From contig NZ_SUMD01000001.1 of the NCBI RefSeq assembly GCF_005049235.1, positions 372,001 to 436,000 of the forward strand: a DNA stretch of 64,000 nt, in the 5' to 3' direction. How positions within the stretch are numbered: position 1 is the stretch's first letter; each line of letters begins with the position of its first letter. Below the pieces are notes generated by a model that was not told where the DNA came from, ran no database searches, and worked only from the letters and a program-made list of their open reading frames with translations. Shown here piece by piece: positions 3,283 to 6,397 of the stretch. The DNA is from Rhodococcus oryzae. GTDB lineage: Bacteria; Actinomycetota; Actinomycetes; Mycobacteriales; Mycobacteriaceae. The translations under genes were made by a program, and so were the position numbers.

Positions 3283-4659
3283 TCAGGCGATCAGATCGGC
3301 GAGGAACCAGTAGGCGAAACCGAAGTAGATGAACACGCCGACGAGGTCCATGATCGAGGTGATGAGCGGTGCGCTCAGGGTCGCGGGATCGGTGCCGATC
3401 TTGCGGGCGAGGAAGGGCAGCAGCGAGCCGAGCACACCGCCGACCACGGTGCAGGTGAGCATGCTCAGGCCGACGATGGCCAGGACCTCACCACCGATGT
3501 CACCCTTGGTGAAGTAGGTGAGAACGACCTCGAGGACGGCAATGGAGGCACCGAGCGCGAGCGCTACGCCTAGCTCACGACGGATGACGAATCCGATATC
3601 GCGCCAACGCAACTGCATCTGCCCCAACGCCATCGACCGAAGGACGAGGGTCGCCGACTGACTGCCGGTATTACCGCCCATATCGATGATCGGAGCGAGG
3701 AAGGCGGCCAGGATGATGACCTCGGCGAGAATGTCTTCTTGCGCCGCAACGAAATTGCTGGTGATCAGACCGAACACGGTCAACAGCCCGAGCCAGAAGA
3801 CCCGCGTTCCGTAGATGCGGAGGAACGAGGAGTCCTTCAGATCGAGATCCGGACCTCCGACCGCGGACGTTCCGCCGTAGCGGGCCAGCTGGGTCGCATC
3901 CTGTTCGCGATCGATGTCCATCGCATCATCGACGGTCACGATGCCGATCATGCGTTCGTCGCCATCGACAACCGGTACAGCGAGCATGTTGTAACGCCGG
4001 ATGTATTCGGTGGCTTTGTCATCCGGATCATTGCTACGCACGAGAACGGGGTCGGTCTGCATCAGCTCCTCAACCTTGGTGTCCGCGCGGTTGAGCACCA
4101 GCTCGCGCAGCGGGATCGTGCCACGGAGGCGACCGTCGCCGTCGATCACGTACACGACATTGATCGTTTCCTTGTCCGGCGCGCTCGTTCGCAGCTCCTG
4201 CAGCGAGTCGCCGACGGTCATTCCCGCGCTCACCGTGGCATAGGCCGAGGTGGTCACCGATCCCGCCGTGCCCTCGGGGTAGGCCGCCAGCCTCAGCACG
4301 TCCTCCCGCTCGGCCTGGGCCAGCAGTGGTATCAGTCGCTCACGGCCATCCGAACTCAGCCGGTTGTACAGGTCGGCGCGCTCATCCGGGGGTAGGTCCC
4401 CGATCAACGTCGCAGCAGGTCCAGACGGCGTGGCGGCCAGAACGGCATCCTGCTCGGCATCGAGTAGCTCGACGAACAGGCGCGCCTGCTCCCGGGACGG
4501 CAGTGTGAGCAGAAGTGCCGACACCTGCTGGGGAGCGGCATCACGCAGGACTTCCGCGATGTCGGCCGGTGGACACTCCCGGACCAACCGACGGAAGGCG
4601 TCCGGGTCCGGATTCTGTAGCAGCATCCGGACAGACACGATGATTTCTTCACGGTTCAT
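3283..4659 (-). CDS. mgtE: MgtE-type magnesium transporter
   Basis: A 458-residue inner-membrane Mg2+ channel/transporter. The N-terminal ~130 residues form the helical MgtE_N domain (repeats around LLQNPDPDAFRRLV). Residues ~135-255 hold two CBS domains (VSAGMTVGDSLQELR; MIGIVTVDDAMDI), and the C-terminal ~190 residues hold five membrane helices, with PIIDMGGNTGSQSATL in the pore region. In the family the cytosolic domains sense Mg2+ and gate the pore. ATG 4659 has GAGG upstream. The long leader carries an M-box riboswitch and a short Pro-rich ORF, so expression is very likely Mg2+-controlled. Confidence 0.95.
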   Translation of the reverse strand: MNREEIIVSVRMLLQNPDPDAFRRLVRECPPADIAEVLRDAAPQQVSALLLTLPSREQARLFVELLDAEQDAVLAATPSGPAATLIGDLPPDERADLYNRLSSDGRERLIPLLAQAEREDVLRLAAYPEGTAGSVTTSAYATVSAGMTVGDSLQELRTSAPDKETINVVYVIDGDGRLRGTIPLRELVLNRADTKVEELMQTDPVLVRSNDPDDKATEYIRRYNMLAVPVVDGDERMIGIVTVDDAMDIDREQDATQLARYGGTSAVGGPDLDLKDSSFLRIYGTRVFWLGLLTVFGLITSNFVAAQEDILAEVIILAAFLAPIIDMGGNTGSQSATLVLRSMALGQMQLRWRDIGFVIRRELGVALALGASIAVLEVVLTYFTKGDIGGEVLAIVGLSMLTCTVVGGVLGSLLPFLARKIGTDPATLSAPLITSIMDLVGVFIYFGFAYWFLADLIA

Positions 4660-4824
4660 GATGACCTCACTCGAATCGGCCGCTGGGTCTCAACAGCCGC
4701 GAAAAACCGCATGCCGCAACCGGGTTTCGGCAGACGGCAGCCCAAAAGGACCACCGATCGGCACGCAGAGGGTGACCGCCGACGCACGGACAGCGTCGGG
4801 GTGAAAGAACGGGAACCCGCGTCA

Positions 4825-4843
4825 GCCGCCCAGCATGGGCGGC
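4825..4843 (-). promoter_or_regulatory. 8-bp hairpin in the mgtE leader, just after the short ORF
   Basis: GCCGCCCA and TGGGCGGC form a perfect 8-bp stem with a 3-base loop, starting 7 bases after the stop of the Pro-rich short ORF. No U-run follows, so it is not a classical intrinsic terminator. It could be a pause site, a Rho-coupled attenuator element, or a stem that a ribosome stalled on the short ORF would disrupt. Its function is inferred. Confidence 0.5.
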
Positions 4844-4850
4844 CGTGAAC

Positions 4851-4928
4851 TCAGCGCCGCTGAGACGGCGTGGGAGTAGACGACGGAGGGTGATCGCAAG
4901 CCCCGGAACTACTCGGACTCGGACTCAT
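4851..4928 (-). CDS. Short Pro/Ser-rich upstream ORF in the mgtE leader (25 codons)
   Basis: ATG 4928 follows GGGAGGTGA (4933-4941), a near-perfect Shine-Dalgarno with ~6-base spacing, among the best in the window. The peptide starts MSPSPSSSGACDHPP and continues SSTPTPSQRR before TGA at 4851: 6 Pro and 8 Ser in 25 residues, including one Pro-Pro pair. It lies between the M-box aptamer and mgtE, on the same transcript. A proline-rich leader peptide tuning Mg2+ transporter expression is known from Salmonella mgtA (mgtL); a similar role here is inference. Confidence 0.6.
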   Translation of the reverse strand: MSPSPSSSGACDHPPSSTPTPSQRR

Positions 4929-4983
4929 GCCATCACCTCCCGGCGGTCGAGGCGCACGCGGGCGCCGATCGATGCAAGCGCGG

Positions 4984-5027
4984 GAGAAGGGCCGGACGAC
5001 AGAGGTCGCGGCTCAGCACCCCTTCTC
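4984..5027 (-). promoter_or_regulatory. Putative M-box expression platform (alternative pairing)
   Basis: On the RNA, GAGAAGGG at the 3' edge of the aptamer (5027-5020) is exactly complementary to CCCTTCTC 28 bases downstream (4991-4984). Forming this 8-bp helix would compete with closure of aptamer helix P1, as expected of a switching element. No U-tract follows the second arm, so a Rho-dependent or ribosome-coupled output is more likely than intrinsic termination. The pairing is seen; the switching is inferred. Confidence 0.45.
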
Positions 5028-5185
5028 GACAGAGCTTTGGCACTGCACGGCGTAACCCGCGATGCGGGAGCCACTTGGGCTCAACCCTTCGTCCGGGAGG
5101 AGCTGTCCTGACCCGGGGCGTCTCTCGACGTTTGGGGTCAGTGGCCTGTGTCCGTGCAGACGCCTCACCTAGCGAGGTGCATGCG
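5016..5185 (-). promoter_or_regulatory. M-box (ykoK) Mg2+ riboswitch aptamer
   Basis: Read on the minus strand, the segment carries the conserved M-box blocks in order: GCTAGGTGAGGC at the 5' side, CACGGACACAGGC, CTGACCCCAAACGTCGAGAGACG, the complementary CGGGTCAG, and finally CCGTGCAGTGCCAAAGCTCTG. TCTGCACGG and CCGTGCAG pair to form the long-range helix. This matches the family consensus I know from Bacillus and mycobacteria. M-boxes sense Mg2+ and lower expression of Mg2+ uptake genes when it is plentiful. mgtE is the gene downstream. Outer boundaries are approximate. Confidence 0.9.
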
Positions 5186-5281
5186 GCGAACAGCTAAACA
5201 GACATTCACCGGCGACGCAAACCTCCCCCTCCATGGATCCCTGAATACGTCTACGCCACAACACATTCCGCGTGGTTGCGA

Positions 5282-5647
5282 TCATACGAACAAGGCGTGA
5301 GCGACGGCGAACCCCAGCGCCGCGGCTGCGATCCCGGCCGCGACGCTGACCACGACGTTGGCCAGCGCGTACAGCCGGACCCCGTCCTCGACGAGCCGGA
5401 CCGTCTCGTAGCCGAAGGTGCTGTACGTCGTCAGCGCACCACAGAATCCGGTGCCAACGAGGGCCATCACCTCACCACCATGAGCGGCGCCGCCGACCAG
5501 AGCACCGAGGATCAGCGATCCGATCACGTTCACGGTGAGGGTCCCCCACGGGAACTCGCTGTCGGCGCGGGACCCGACGGCGCGGTCGAGCAGGAAGCGC
5601 GTTGGCGCGCCGACCATGCCGCCGAGGACGACCAGCACCACCGTCAC
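5282..5647 (-). CDS. crcB: CrcB/Fluc fluoride channel subunit (second copy)
   Basis: A 121-residue membrane protein with four predicted helices and the Fluc pattern: GAPTRFLLDR near the N-terminus, the PWGTLTVNVIGS Asn-containing segment, and GALTTYSTFGYET carrying the channel TxxST motif. Fluc proteins export toxic fluoride as dual-topology dimers; actinobacteria often encode two diverged copies that form heterodimers. GTG 5647 overlaps the stop of the DUF190 gene by 4 bases (GTGA), so translation is probably coupled. It is the last gene of the crcB-DUF190-crcB cluster. Confidence 0.92.
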   Translation of the reverse strand: MTVVLVVLGGMVGAPTRFLLDRAVGSRADSEFPWGTLTVNVIGSLILGALVGGAAHGGEVMALVGTGFCGALTTYSTFGYETVRLVEDGVRLYALANVVVSVAAGIAAAALGFAVAHALFV

Positions 5648-5982
5648 GGCCGGTCCTCGGTGAAGTGCACCCGCTCGACGCCCTCGAGTGTCACGGTGGC
5701 CTCGGTGAGAAGTTCACCGATGCCGTCCAGGAACCCGCGGATCCGCTCCTCGGTGTCCACCGCGACCACCAACAGCGGCAACCCATCGGCCAGGTCGAGG
5801 AGCCTCGTGGTGTGGATGTGCGCGGACGCGCCATACCCCTCGACTCCCCGCCACACACTCGCACCACTCAGCCCGGCGGCACGGGCGCGCTTGACGATCT
5901 CCTGGTACTTCGGCTTGTGATGCCAGAGGTCGTCCTGCCCGAGGATGATCGACAGCCGCATCTCCGTGCGCGAGTAAGACAT
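5644..5982 (-). CDS. DUF190 family protein in the fluoride-export operon
   Basis: A 112-residue cytosolic protein of the DUF190 family, a PII-like ferredoxin-fold group. Visible landmarks are RLSIILGQDDLWHHKP at the N-terminus, AGLSGASVWRGVEGYG, and DLPLLVVAVDTEERI-like residues in the middle. ATG 5982 has AAGGAAG 6 bases upstream. One base separates it from the stop of the upstream crcB, and its own stop overlaps the start of the second crcB. DUF190 genes are commonly linked with crcB; a regulatory role is inferred, the biochemical function is unknown. Confidence 0.85.
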   Translation of the reverse strand: MSYSRTEMRLSIILGQDDLWHHKPKYQEIVKRARAAGLSGASVWRGVEGYGASAHIHTTRLLDLADGLPLLVVAVDTEERIRGFLDGIGELLTEATVTLEGVERVHFTEDRP

Positions 5983-5983
5983 G

Positions 5984-6388
5984 TCAGCTTCCTTTCTCGG
6001 CGACGGCACCGGTGACGAGGCGTGCGCCCCACACCCCCACCAGGACGGCGGCGAGCGCCGCGATCACCGTCCCGAAGAGATAGCCGAACGCGATCGGATA
6101 GTTGCCGGACGCGAGCAGCCCCCGCACCTCGACCGCATAGGTCGAGAAGGTGGTGAAGCCGCCGAGCACCCCGACCCCGAGGAACGGTCGCAGCAACCGG
6201 TGCGCGGTCCAGACCTCGGTGATGAGCACCATGAGGATGCCGATCAGCAGGCAGCCGGTCACGTTGGTGATCAGCGTCGCCCACGGGATCTCCCTGGTCG
6301 GCATCGCGTGCGCGATGCCGTATCTCGCGAGCGCACCGATCCCGCCGCCGAGCGCGACCACCGCGAGCAGCGATCCCTCACCGCGCAT
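5984..6388 (-). CDS. crcB: CrcB/Fluc fluoride channel subunit (first copy)
   Basis: A 134-residue four-helix membrane protein: GGGIGALARYGI near the N-terminus, PWATLITNVTGCLLIG with the conserved Asn, and GGFTTFSTYAVE with the TTFST filter motif. I start at ATG 6388, which has AGGTGA 6 bases upstream; a GTG three codons earlier is possible. It follows the LON-domain gene (stop at 6398) closely, so all four genes from 7039 to 5282 may be one transcript. I see no fluoride riboswitch upstream. Confidence 0.92.
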   Translation of the reverse strand: MRGEGSLLAVVALGGGIGALARYGIAHAMPTREIPWATLITNVTGCLLIGILMVLITEVWTAHRLLRPFLGVGVLGGFTTFSTYAVEVRGLLASGNYPIAFGYLFGTVIAALAAVLVGVWGARLVTGAVAEKGS

Positions 6389-6397
6389 GCGAATCAC

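Follow-up and report, generated by a model that had tools for sequence, protein, structure and literature searches.

An M-box riboswitch and a conserved short upstream frame before mgtE of Rhodococcus oryzae, probably parts of a Mg2+ switch rather than a proline sensor

The closest described system is the leader of pe20 in Mycobacterium tuberculosis (Mtb), where lacZ fusions assayed in M. smegmatis and depletion of Rho support control of a conserved upstream open reading frame (uORF) by an Mbox, through an anti-Shine-Dalgarno (anti-SD) platform and Rho termination (D'Halluin et al., RNA 2026, PMC12810186). The same arrangement was proposed for rv1535, an mgtE-type class of M-boxes was named in mycobacteria, and the peptide was called mycobacteria-specific, with the suggestion that it might act on PE20-PPE31 or in a transporter (PMC12810186). 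Our literature search on M-boxes with a leader peptide or uORF in actinobacteria, on mgtE and on Rv1805A gave nothing beyond that paper, which makes outdated the view of the first-pass annotation of our locus that no case of this arrangement had been described. The main mapped RNA end in Mtb lies upstream of the uORF, and the authors read termination as independent of uORF translation (PMC12810186). An end at that place could also arise by trimming of the RNA as far as the aptamer.

MgtL, from the enterobacterial mgtL/mgtA leader, has been linked to proline, and we know of no M-box aptamer in the mgtL leader. That leader is like our locus in being Mg2+-controlled, in its short Pro-containing ORF and in the part played by Rho, which is presumed for our locus (PMC11282234), but the EPDP motif of MgtL is absent in the window (the whole 64,000-nucleotide stretch of R. 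oryzae DNA analysed here) and translation of mgtL represses. The ykoK leader of Bacillus subtilis has an aptamer of the same family but differs in its intrinsic terminator (PMC12810186), whereas a consensus scan of positions 4600-5350 of the window found none. The B12 riboswitch of Mtb ppe2 likewise acts on a short upstream ORF, but PPE2 is reported to be translated mainly by termination-reinitiation (PMC11260477), whereas in the window 191 nt lie between the uORF stop and mgtE, a gap that makes direct translational coupling unlikely.

All features of the window's leader lie on the minus strand. The M-box (Mg2+) riboswitch aptamer was matched by RF00380 at 5183-5013 with 145.9 bits (E 4.4e-33; gathering score 44), 2-3 nt off the limits first claimed for an M-box upstream of mgtE, and directly upstream of it lies a cluster (5282-6397) in which two crcB genes flank a DUF190 gene. 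The 3′ end of the aptamer, GAGAAGGG (5020-5027), can pair as anti-anti-SD with the pyrimidine-rich alpha (anti-SD) segment CCCTTCTCCCG (4981-4991), 4991-4984 being a perfect 8-bp complement of 5027-5020. There follow the hairpin H2 (GGCGC-CCGCGT-GCGCC, 4951-4966), at a fixed distance 5′ of the ribosome site, the uORF ribosome site GGGAGGTGAT itself (4932-4941) and the uORF MSPSPSSSGACDHPPSSTPTPSQRR (4851-4928), whose 25 codons with 6 Pro and 8 Ser were confirmed by translation and whose codon 1-10 block (4899-4928) carries AGT Ser at codons 2, 4, 6 and 7 and TCC at codon 8. A C-rich, G-poor stretch, a candidate Rho loading site, runs across the uORF body (4833-4910), and an 8-bp hairpin (4843-4825) is present where the first-pass annotation had placed it, beginning 7 bases past the uORF stop; beyond it lies mgtE (3283-4659), which encodes a Mg2+ channel/transporter with Pfam MgtE_N, CBS and MgtE domains. 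The claim of a strong ribosome site also held; its string GGAGGTGAT occurs twice in the window against 0.43 expected; the 8-mer GGAGGTGA occurs five times against 2.5 expected, and 15 of 100 shuffles reach five.

Scans of the family and the order gave 152 M-box places, of which 149 belong to the family and 3 to the rest of the order (one of the 152, L200, scores under the Rfam cut-off). Behind 129 of them we found a uORF with a strong SD, defined by an SD match of at least 7 nt, a start 40-170 nt past the aptamer and a length of 15-45 aa, compared with a mean of 0.4 and a maximum of 2 in 60 shuffled sets, 3 on the antisense strand and 0 in a stretch farther downstream. At least one M-box-uORF was present in 16 of the 20 sampled genera having an M-box. 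In 394 genomes of the class a scan turned up another 11 M-boxes, from other orders, all of them with an SD match of at least 8 nt and a frame (e.g., MSPGHSPRLS and MSSGSSPQP); 8 of the 11 fall inside the same limits, and outside them are two 47-aa frames and one interrupted by N. Judged from sequence, the short ORF is a member of a conserved element, and because the element occurs at 129/152 places in the family and order and at 8/11 elsewhere in the class, it is not mycobacteria-specific.

The 23 M-boxes that miss this definition are, as read by eye, a mixture: frames starting with ATT (L148, L163, L165), starts lost or frames shortened (L117, L121, L136), SDs at the aptamer end (L110, L177, L178), frames beyond the limits (L022, L023, L170, L180; L023, with its uORF 313 nt away, was left out of most family counts, which then cover 133 of 134), an mgtC-like ORF directly behind the aptamer (L118, L162 and three of the four M-boxes of genus g19, all four of which miss) and a few loci without a clear frame. 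In L110, L177 and L178 the SD at the aptamer's very end is followed by a 12-codon ORF, MSDGPSISGTRR (seen by eye), which resembles a shorter form of the module. The uORFs of genus g22 (L109, L168, L170-L173, L185) form a type of their own, in which TTA, AAT and TCA codons encode a conserved VPLANRS block, and an mgtC-like ORF follows in those of its loci whose downstream gene was listed. A further candidate frame, uORF1, with a GTG at the aptamer end, stops at the uORF start in 46 of 102 leaders compared with 40.9 in shuffles (maximum 48), which is not significant.

To compare the window with these leaders, we used a covariance model, R1, built from 57 other leaders with both the aptamer and the window excluded (class-A rows more than 86% alike or with less than 40 nt before the SD were dropped, and 57 of 88 were kept). 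Within the 64 kb it matches best at 4970-4911, exactly the uORF start region with its ribosome site (E 3.7e-8, next best 0.0028, both E-values being rough), and by this match the window leader is a non-mycobacterial member of the pe20-type M-box-uORF module. With the Mtb pe20/rv1535 leaders (uORF2/Rv1805A) it has in common the M-box, the proposed exchange among aptamer end, anti-SD and SD, the strong SD, the conserved uORF N-terminus and the long gap (PMC12810186); it differs in genus, in the gene, which is mgtE and not pe20, and, by the model alignment, in lacking two N-terminal codons. Rv1805A is probably of the class-A type, judging by its layout, its Pro7 and the PE/PPE genes next to it. 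In the R1 alignment MSP--SPSSS stands under MSPGDSPYPS, with a 6-nt gap of the aligner's choosing in the window and two codons of the N-terminal block missing; position 7 of the window uORF is Ser, and with the gap so placed Ser4-Pro5 falls under Ser6-Pro7, the place of the published Pro7, with the AGU codon kept. It might be argued that the uORF is idle here and that the aptamer alone controls mgtE, given this diverged N-terminal block, the 191-nt gap and the loss of the start codon or frame in some relatives, but the strong SD, the recognition of the start region by a model trained without this leader and the AGT kept at codons 2, 4, 6 and 7 make this very unlikely.

Among 36 chosen further loci, R1 matched 19 at the uORF start with E of at most 0.01 (L200 partly), and a twentieth match, given on L001, belongs to the adjoining M-box L004. 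Most type-B loci escaped the model (L003, L005 and L007; L010 was weak), as did L109 (the sole type-D leader given), L209-L211 and others of the 36, so that for types B and D the layout is common to them but homology is not demonstrated. The three loci with ATT starts keep the SD and the N-terminal block (R1 E 4e-14 to 8e-9), and they may have a non-AUG or a decayed start. L001 and L004, in the window's own genome (C12 304631-305222), are back-to-back M-boxes separated by about 240 nt and followed by one uORF each, the two being of different types, and L024/L029 form the same kind of pair, again with differing uORF types.

The pairing between aptamer and alpha is visible across the family. When 35 different aptamer ends were cross-swapped, an end with its own alpha gave -13.91 kcal/mol versus -12.57 kcal/mol with those of others (z -3.7; 1 of 5000 permutations), and the window's own pairing ranks 6 of 35. 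The commonest form of the end is GAGAGGGG (75/152), and the window's form, GAGAAGGG, has a perfect complement in the window alpha CCCTTCTC. The same cross-swap of alpha against the start region gave no signal (z -0.5; 1495/5000), and a single-sequence test of three-way alpha/aptamer/SD pairing gave a mean z of -0.27, with 7 of 132 leaders at p of at most 0.05. The SD anchor of that three-way test was wrong in GTGAGGG leaders; the hairpin and cross-swap tests reported here use a GGAGG anchor.

When the aptamer strand is left out, the window's leader has a minimum-energy fold that would mask the SD, as TCCCG (4985-4981) is paired to CGGGA (4942-4938), on the border of the ribosome site, but 195 of 200 shuffles were at least as stable (z 1.7, i.e., less stable than shuffles), and with the aptamer strand the ribosome-site region was still paired (z 2.4, again less stable than shuffles). 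Across 129 leaders the predicted openness of the SD was 0.225 with the strand withheld, 0.295 with the strand freed and 0.253 with a shuffled strand, the freed value lying above the withheld one in 85 and above the shuffled one in 73. For the window the response is slight (0.137 with the strand withheld, 0.203 with it freed and 0.195 with it shuffled), and class B moves the other way, its openness falling from 0.320 to 0.293. The aptamer arm of the anti-SD exchange is thus supported by covariation, and the SD arm weakly, by predicted folding.

RNAalifold gave no usable consensus for whole class-A leaders (E 0.0 with 88 rows; -0.5 with 76 rows), and for H2 we therefore compared fixed registers and took the best of them to the test. 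With the window left out, the 57 relatives had 80.6% of cells paired versus 73.8% in shuffles and 33 double changes versus 15.0 (0 of 500 for each), while two of the five measures did not stand out (pairs with a double change, 83/500; further pair types, 106/500); related rows may beat such shuffles without structure. The best register in 94 leaders had 73.8% paired compared with a mean of 57.3 and a maximum of 64.3, and 93 double changes compared with 38. The 41 non-mycobacterial leaders alone stayed within their shuffles (65.4% paired, mean 57.5, maximum 71.2; 21 double changes, mean 13.9, maximum 29), and classes B, C and D favoured another register, with none beating its shuffles.

The short frame itself, whose absence in relatives would have counted against the first-pass reading, proved to be conserved. 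With no length criterion applied, 127 of 130 frames are 16-36 codons long, whereas the number of frames in that range is 41 on average and 58 at most with shuffled tails, and 47 and 35 in the two other reading frames. In 79 close pairs (which overlap and are not independent), substitutions at codon positions 1/2/3 numbered 18/27/56 in the first ten codons and 133/148/135 from codon 11 on, the latter without codon-position bias; a column-wise count is weaker, with third positions making up 23/51 in codons 2-10 (p 0.10) and 52/160 later (p 0.87). Codons 2-10 look selected. The conserved N-terminal residues, together with a homologue outside an M-box, Rv0115A (PMC12810186), would fit a small protein that acts in trans, as a regulator or transporter part of the kind proposed for Rv1805A. 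We consider this improbable, because no codon-position bias is found past codon 10, because a narrow DNA pattern (SD plus DSPYP) occurs at 12 places in 251 family genomes and in all 12 directly behind an M-box, and because frames of the same layout precede unrelated genes: seven of nine ORFs tested behind M-boxes had a Pfam match, to MgtC, Nramp, PPE, PE, P-type ATPase, MgtE and ABC permease, and two had none. The authors of the Mtb study, too, saw no visible difference in biofilm (PMC12810186).

A codon rule is seen in the same block. Across 133 uORFs, Ser is AGU in 251 of 364 cases at codons 2-10 versus 8 of 340 later, against a background of 54/1087 in 41 long window ORFs with a gene-like GC pattern, and of the AGT triplets 251 are in the reading frame and 10 outside it. 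This is not accounted for by an A/T-rich open start, because TCA and TCT together make up 11 of the 364. In the 80 leaders with the core motif, Ser is AGT in 78/80 and Tyr is TAT in 52/52, while the preceding codon and the Asp codon vary, and a choice as strict was not seen for Asp or Gly. The rule extends to other orders, where 10 of the 11 frames (L203, with N runs, was omitted) have AGT in 17/31 cases at codons 2-10 versus 3/23 later. A stem inside the AGU block was searched for by eye alone. The words "serine" and "AGT" are absent from the main text of PMC12810186, and among the matches listed in a literature search on AGU codons none concerned the rule.

One account of the rule is that the uORF is a second sensor, in which elongation through the first ten codons (AGU Ser, Pro and, in most relatives, Asp) would read Mg2+ or translation stress and feed back on the leader fold or on Rho, like the early drop-off of MgtL in enterobacteria. 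The AGU excess, the strictness of AGT and TAT beside neighbours with varying third bases and the composition of the block (Pro 22% and Asp/Glu 17% of residues 2-9 in the family, 10% and 5% later) all point that way, and drop-off at EPDP in MgtL is a precedent (PMC11282234). However, the window uORF has no Asp or Glu before residue 12, so that the early acidic/Pro motif of the MgtL type is absent; the Asp and Gly codons do not follow the rule; translation of MgtL represses, whereas the Mtb-type model links a translated uORF to expression; and a conserved RNA motif would yield the same codon pattern. In B. subtilis, moreover, it is TCN Ser codons and not AGC/AGT that slow ribosomes on biofilm induction (PMC3862929, PMC11925247), and AGU might instead avoid pausing and keep uORF translation steady. 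A second sensor is thus a tentative reading that we regard as unlikely. The same doubt applies to its wider form, that actinobacterial M-boxes are two-stage, with the aptamer gating the uORF start and the AGU/UAU codons reporting elongation before Rho decides; if this were true, the short frame would serve as a codon sensor throughout the class and not as a mycobacterial peptide.

The 6 Pro and 8 Ser among the 25 codons had led the first-pass annotation to suggest proline sensing, and an attenuator responding to proline or serine charging would recall the proline link of MgtL. A Ser-Pro pair with an AGU Ser codon recurs in relatives, where Pro codons form no conserved run, and Pro and Ser codons farther along sit in the C-rich stretch, where selection on amino acids is not visible. 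From codon 11 to the stop the family has 38% C and 25% G, the strongest such bias among the leader segments compared, and the simplest account of the window's later Pro/Ser richness is that CCN and TCN codons are what a C-rich stretch encodes. Behind the uORF there is neither a terminator-like site in the scanned stretch nor a general hairpin in the relatives: the stretch after the uORF folds no better than shuffles (z -0.74; 43/200 as good), and 4 of 133 leaders, the window among them, have a perfect stem of 8 bp or longer no more than 45 nt past the stop, versus 0.7 expected from shuffles, so the hairpin is slightly above chance and not a general feature of relatives. A charging attenuator is therefore highly improbable.

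The C-rich stretch would serve Rho, for which the genome carries the gene. The C/G ratio of the uORF body, 1.524, is at the 94th percentile of the window, but the stretch before the SD (5019-4942) is equally C-rich with 1.522 (1.20 there in the family), so Rho could load there too.

Visible in the leader are the aptamer, the uORF and its conservation, H2, the covariation of aptamer strand and alpha, and the C-rich body. We propose, at a probability of roughly 0.58, that this leader is a Mg2+ OFF-switch which acts through translation of the short uORF and through Rho. At high Mg2+ the aptamer would fold and retain its 3′ strand (5027-5020), leaving alpha (4991-4981) free to mask the uORF ribosome site; with no ribosomes on the uORF its C-rich, G-poor body would be naked, Rho would load and transcription would stop before mgtE. 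At low Mg2+ the aptamer 3′ strand would pair with alpha, the uORF would be translated, and ribosomes would cover the C-rich stretch so that RNA polymerase gets to mgtE. The direction of this switch is presumed from B. subtilis ykoK and Mtb pe20 as described in PMC12810186; the involvement of Rho and the shielding by ribosomes are likewise presumed for our leader. The uORF would work chiefly through its translation over a fixed length, and the peptide would have no job of its own, since unrelated downstream genes together with selection in the first ten codons alone suggest that the act of translating matters. The alpha-SD arm, the fold stability in the window, the equally C-rich stretch before the SD, the position of the main Mtb RNA end upstream of the uORF and the 23 misses among 152 all count against the mechanism, and the AGU rule, which this Rho-shield model does not explain, is the most interesting residue. 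Of the dual control that the first-pass annotation had put forward, RNA ion sensing joined to a translated short ORF stands, on the evidence of relatives, and proline sensing does not; the tiny frame is probably part of a Mg2+ switch rather than a proline sensor.

The gene behind the leader has a separate history. The window MgtE was found in only one of 151 family genomes, its own (E of at most 1e-60); the best of 48 loci in GTDB genomes, from which near relatives may be left out, was that of a Burkholderiaceae MAG with 56% identity, and the third-position GC of mgtE is 0.79 compared with 0.86-0.90 in four neighbouring ORFs. It is likely that mgtE was acquired behind a native M-box-uORF leader, and an acquired mgtE fits a leader that travels independently of the gene. 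About 140 nt before a proteobacterial mgtE (L030) there is a short ORF, MDPEPCRRSSVSRHYFQILH, that resembles the EPDP start of MgtL; such an MgtL-like start was present upstream in 1 of the 48 mgtE loci.

The instance described here is of the kind described in 2026, and what is new is the wide conservation of the M-box-uORF in the class, together with the codon rule. Its presence in 16 of 20 sampled genera, before unrelated genes and with selection visible only in codons 1-10, counts against the mycobacteria-specific peptide of the Mtb paper (PMC12810186). A single-species finding thereby becomes a module of many genera in the class, and this changes what to look for.
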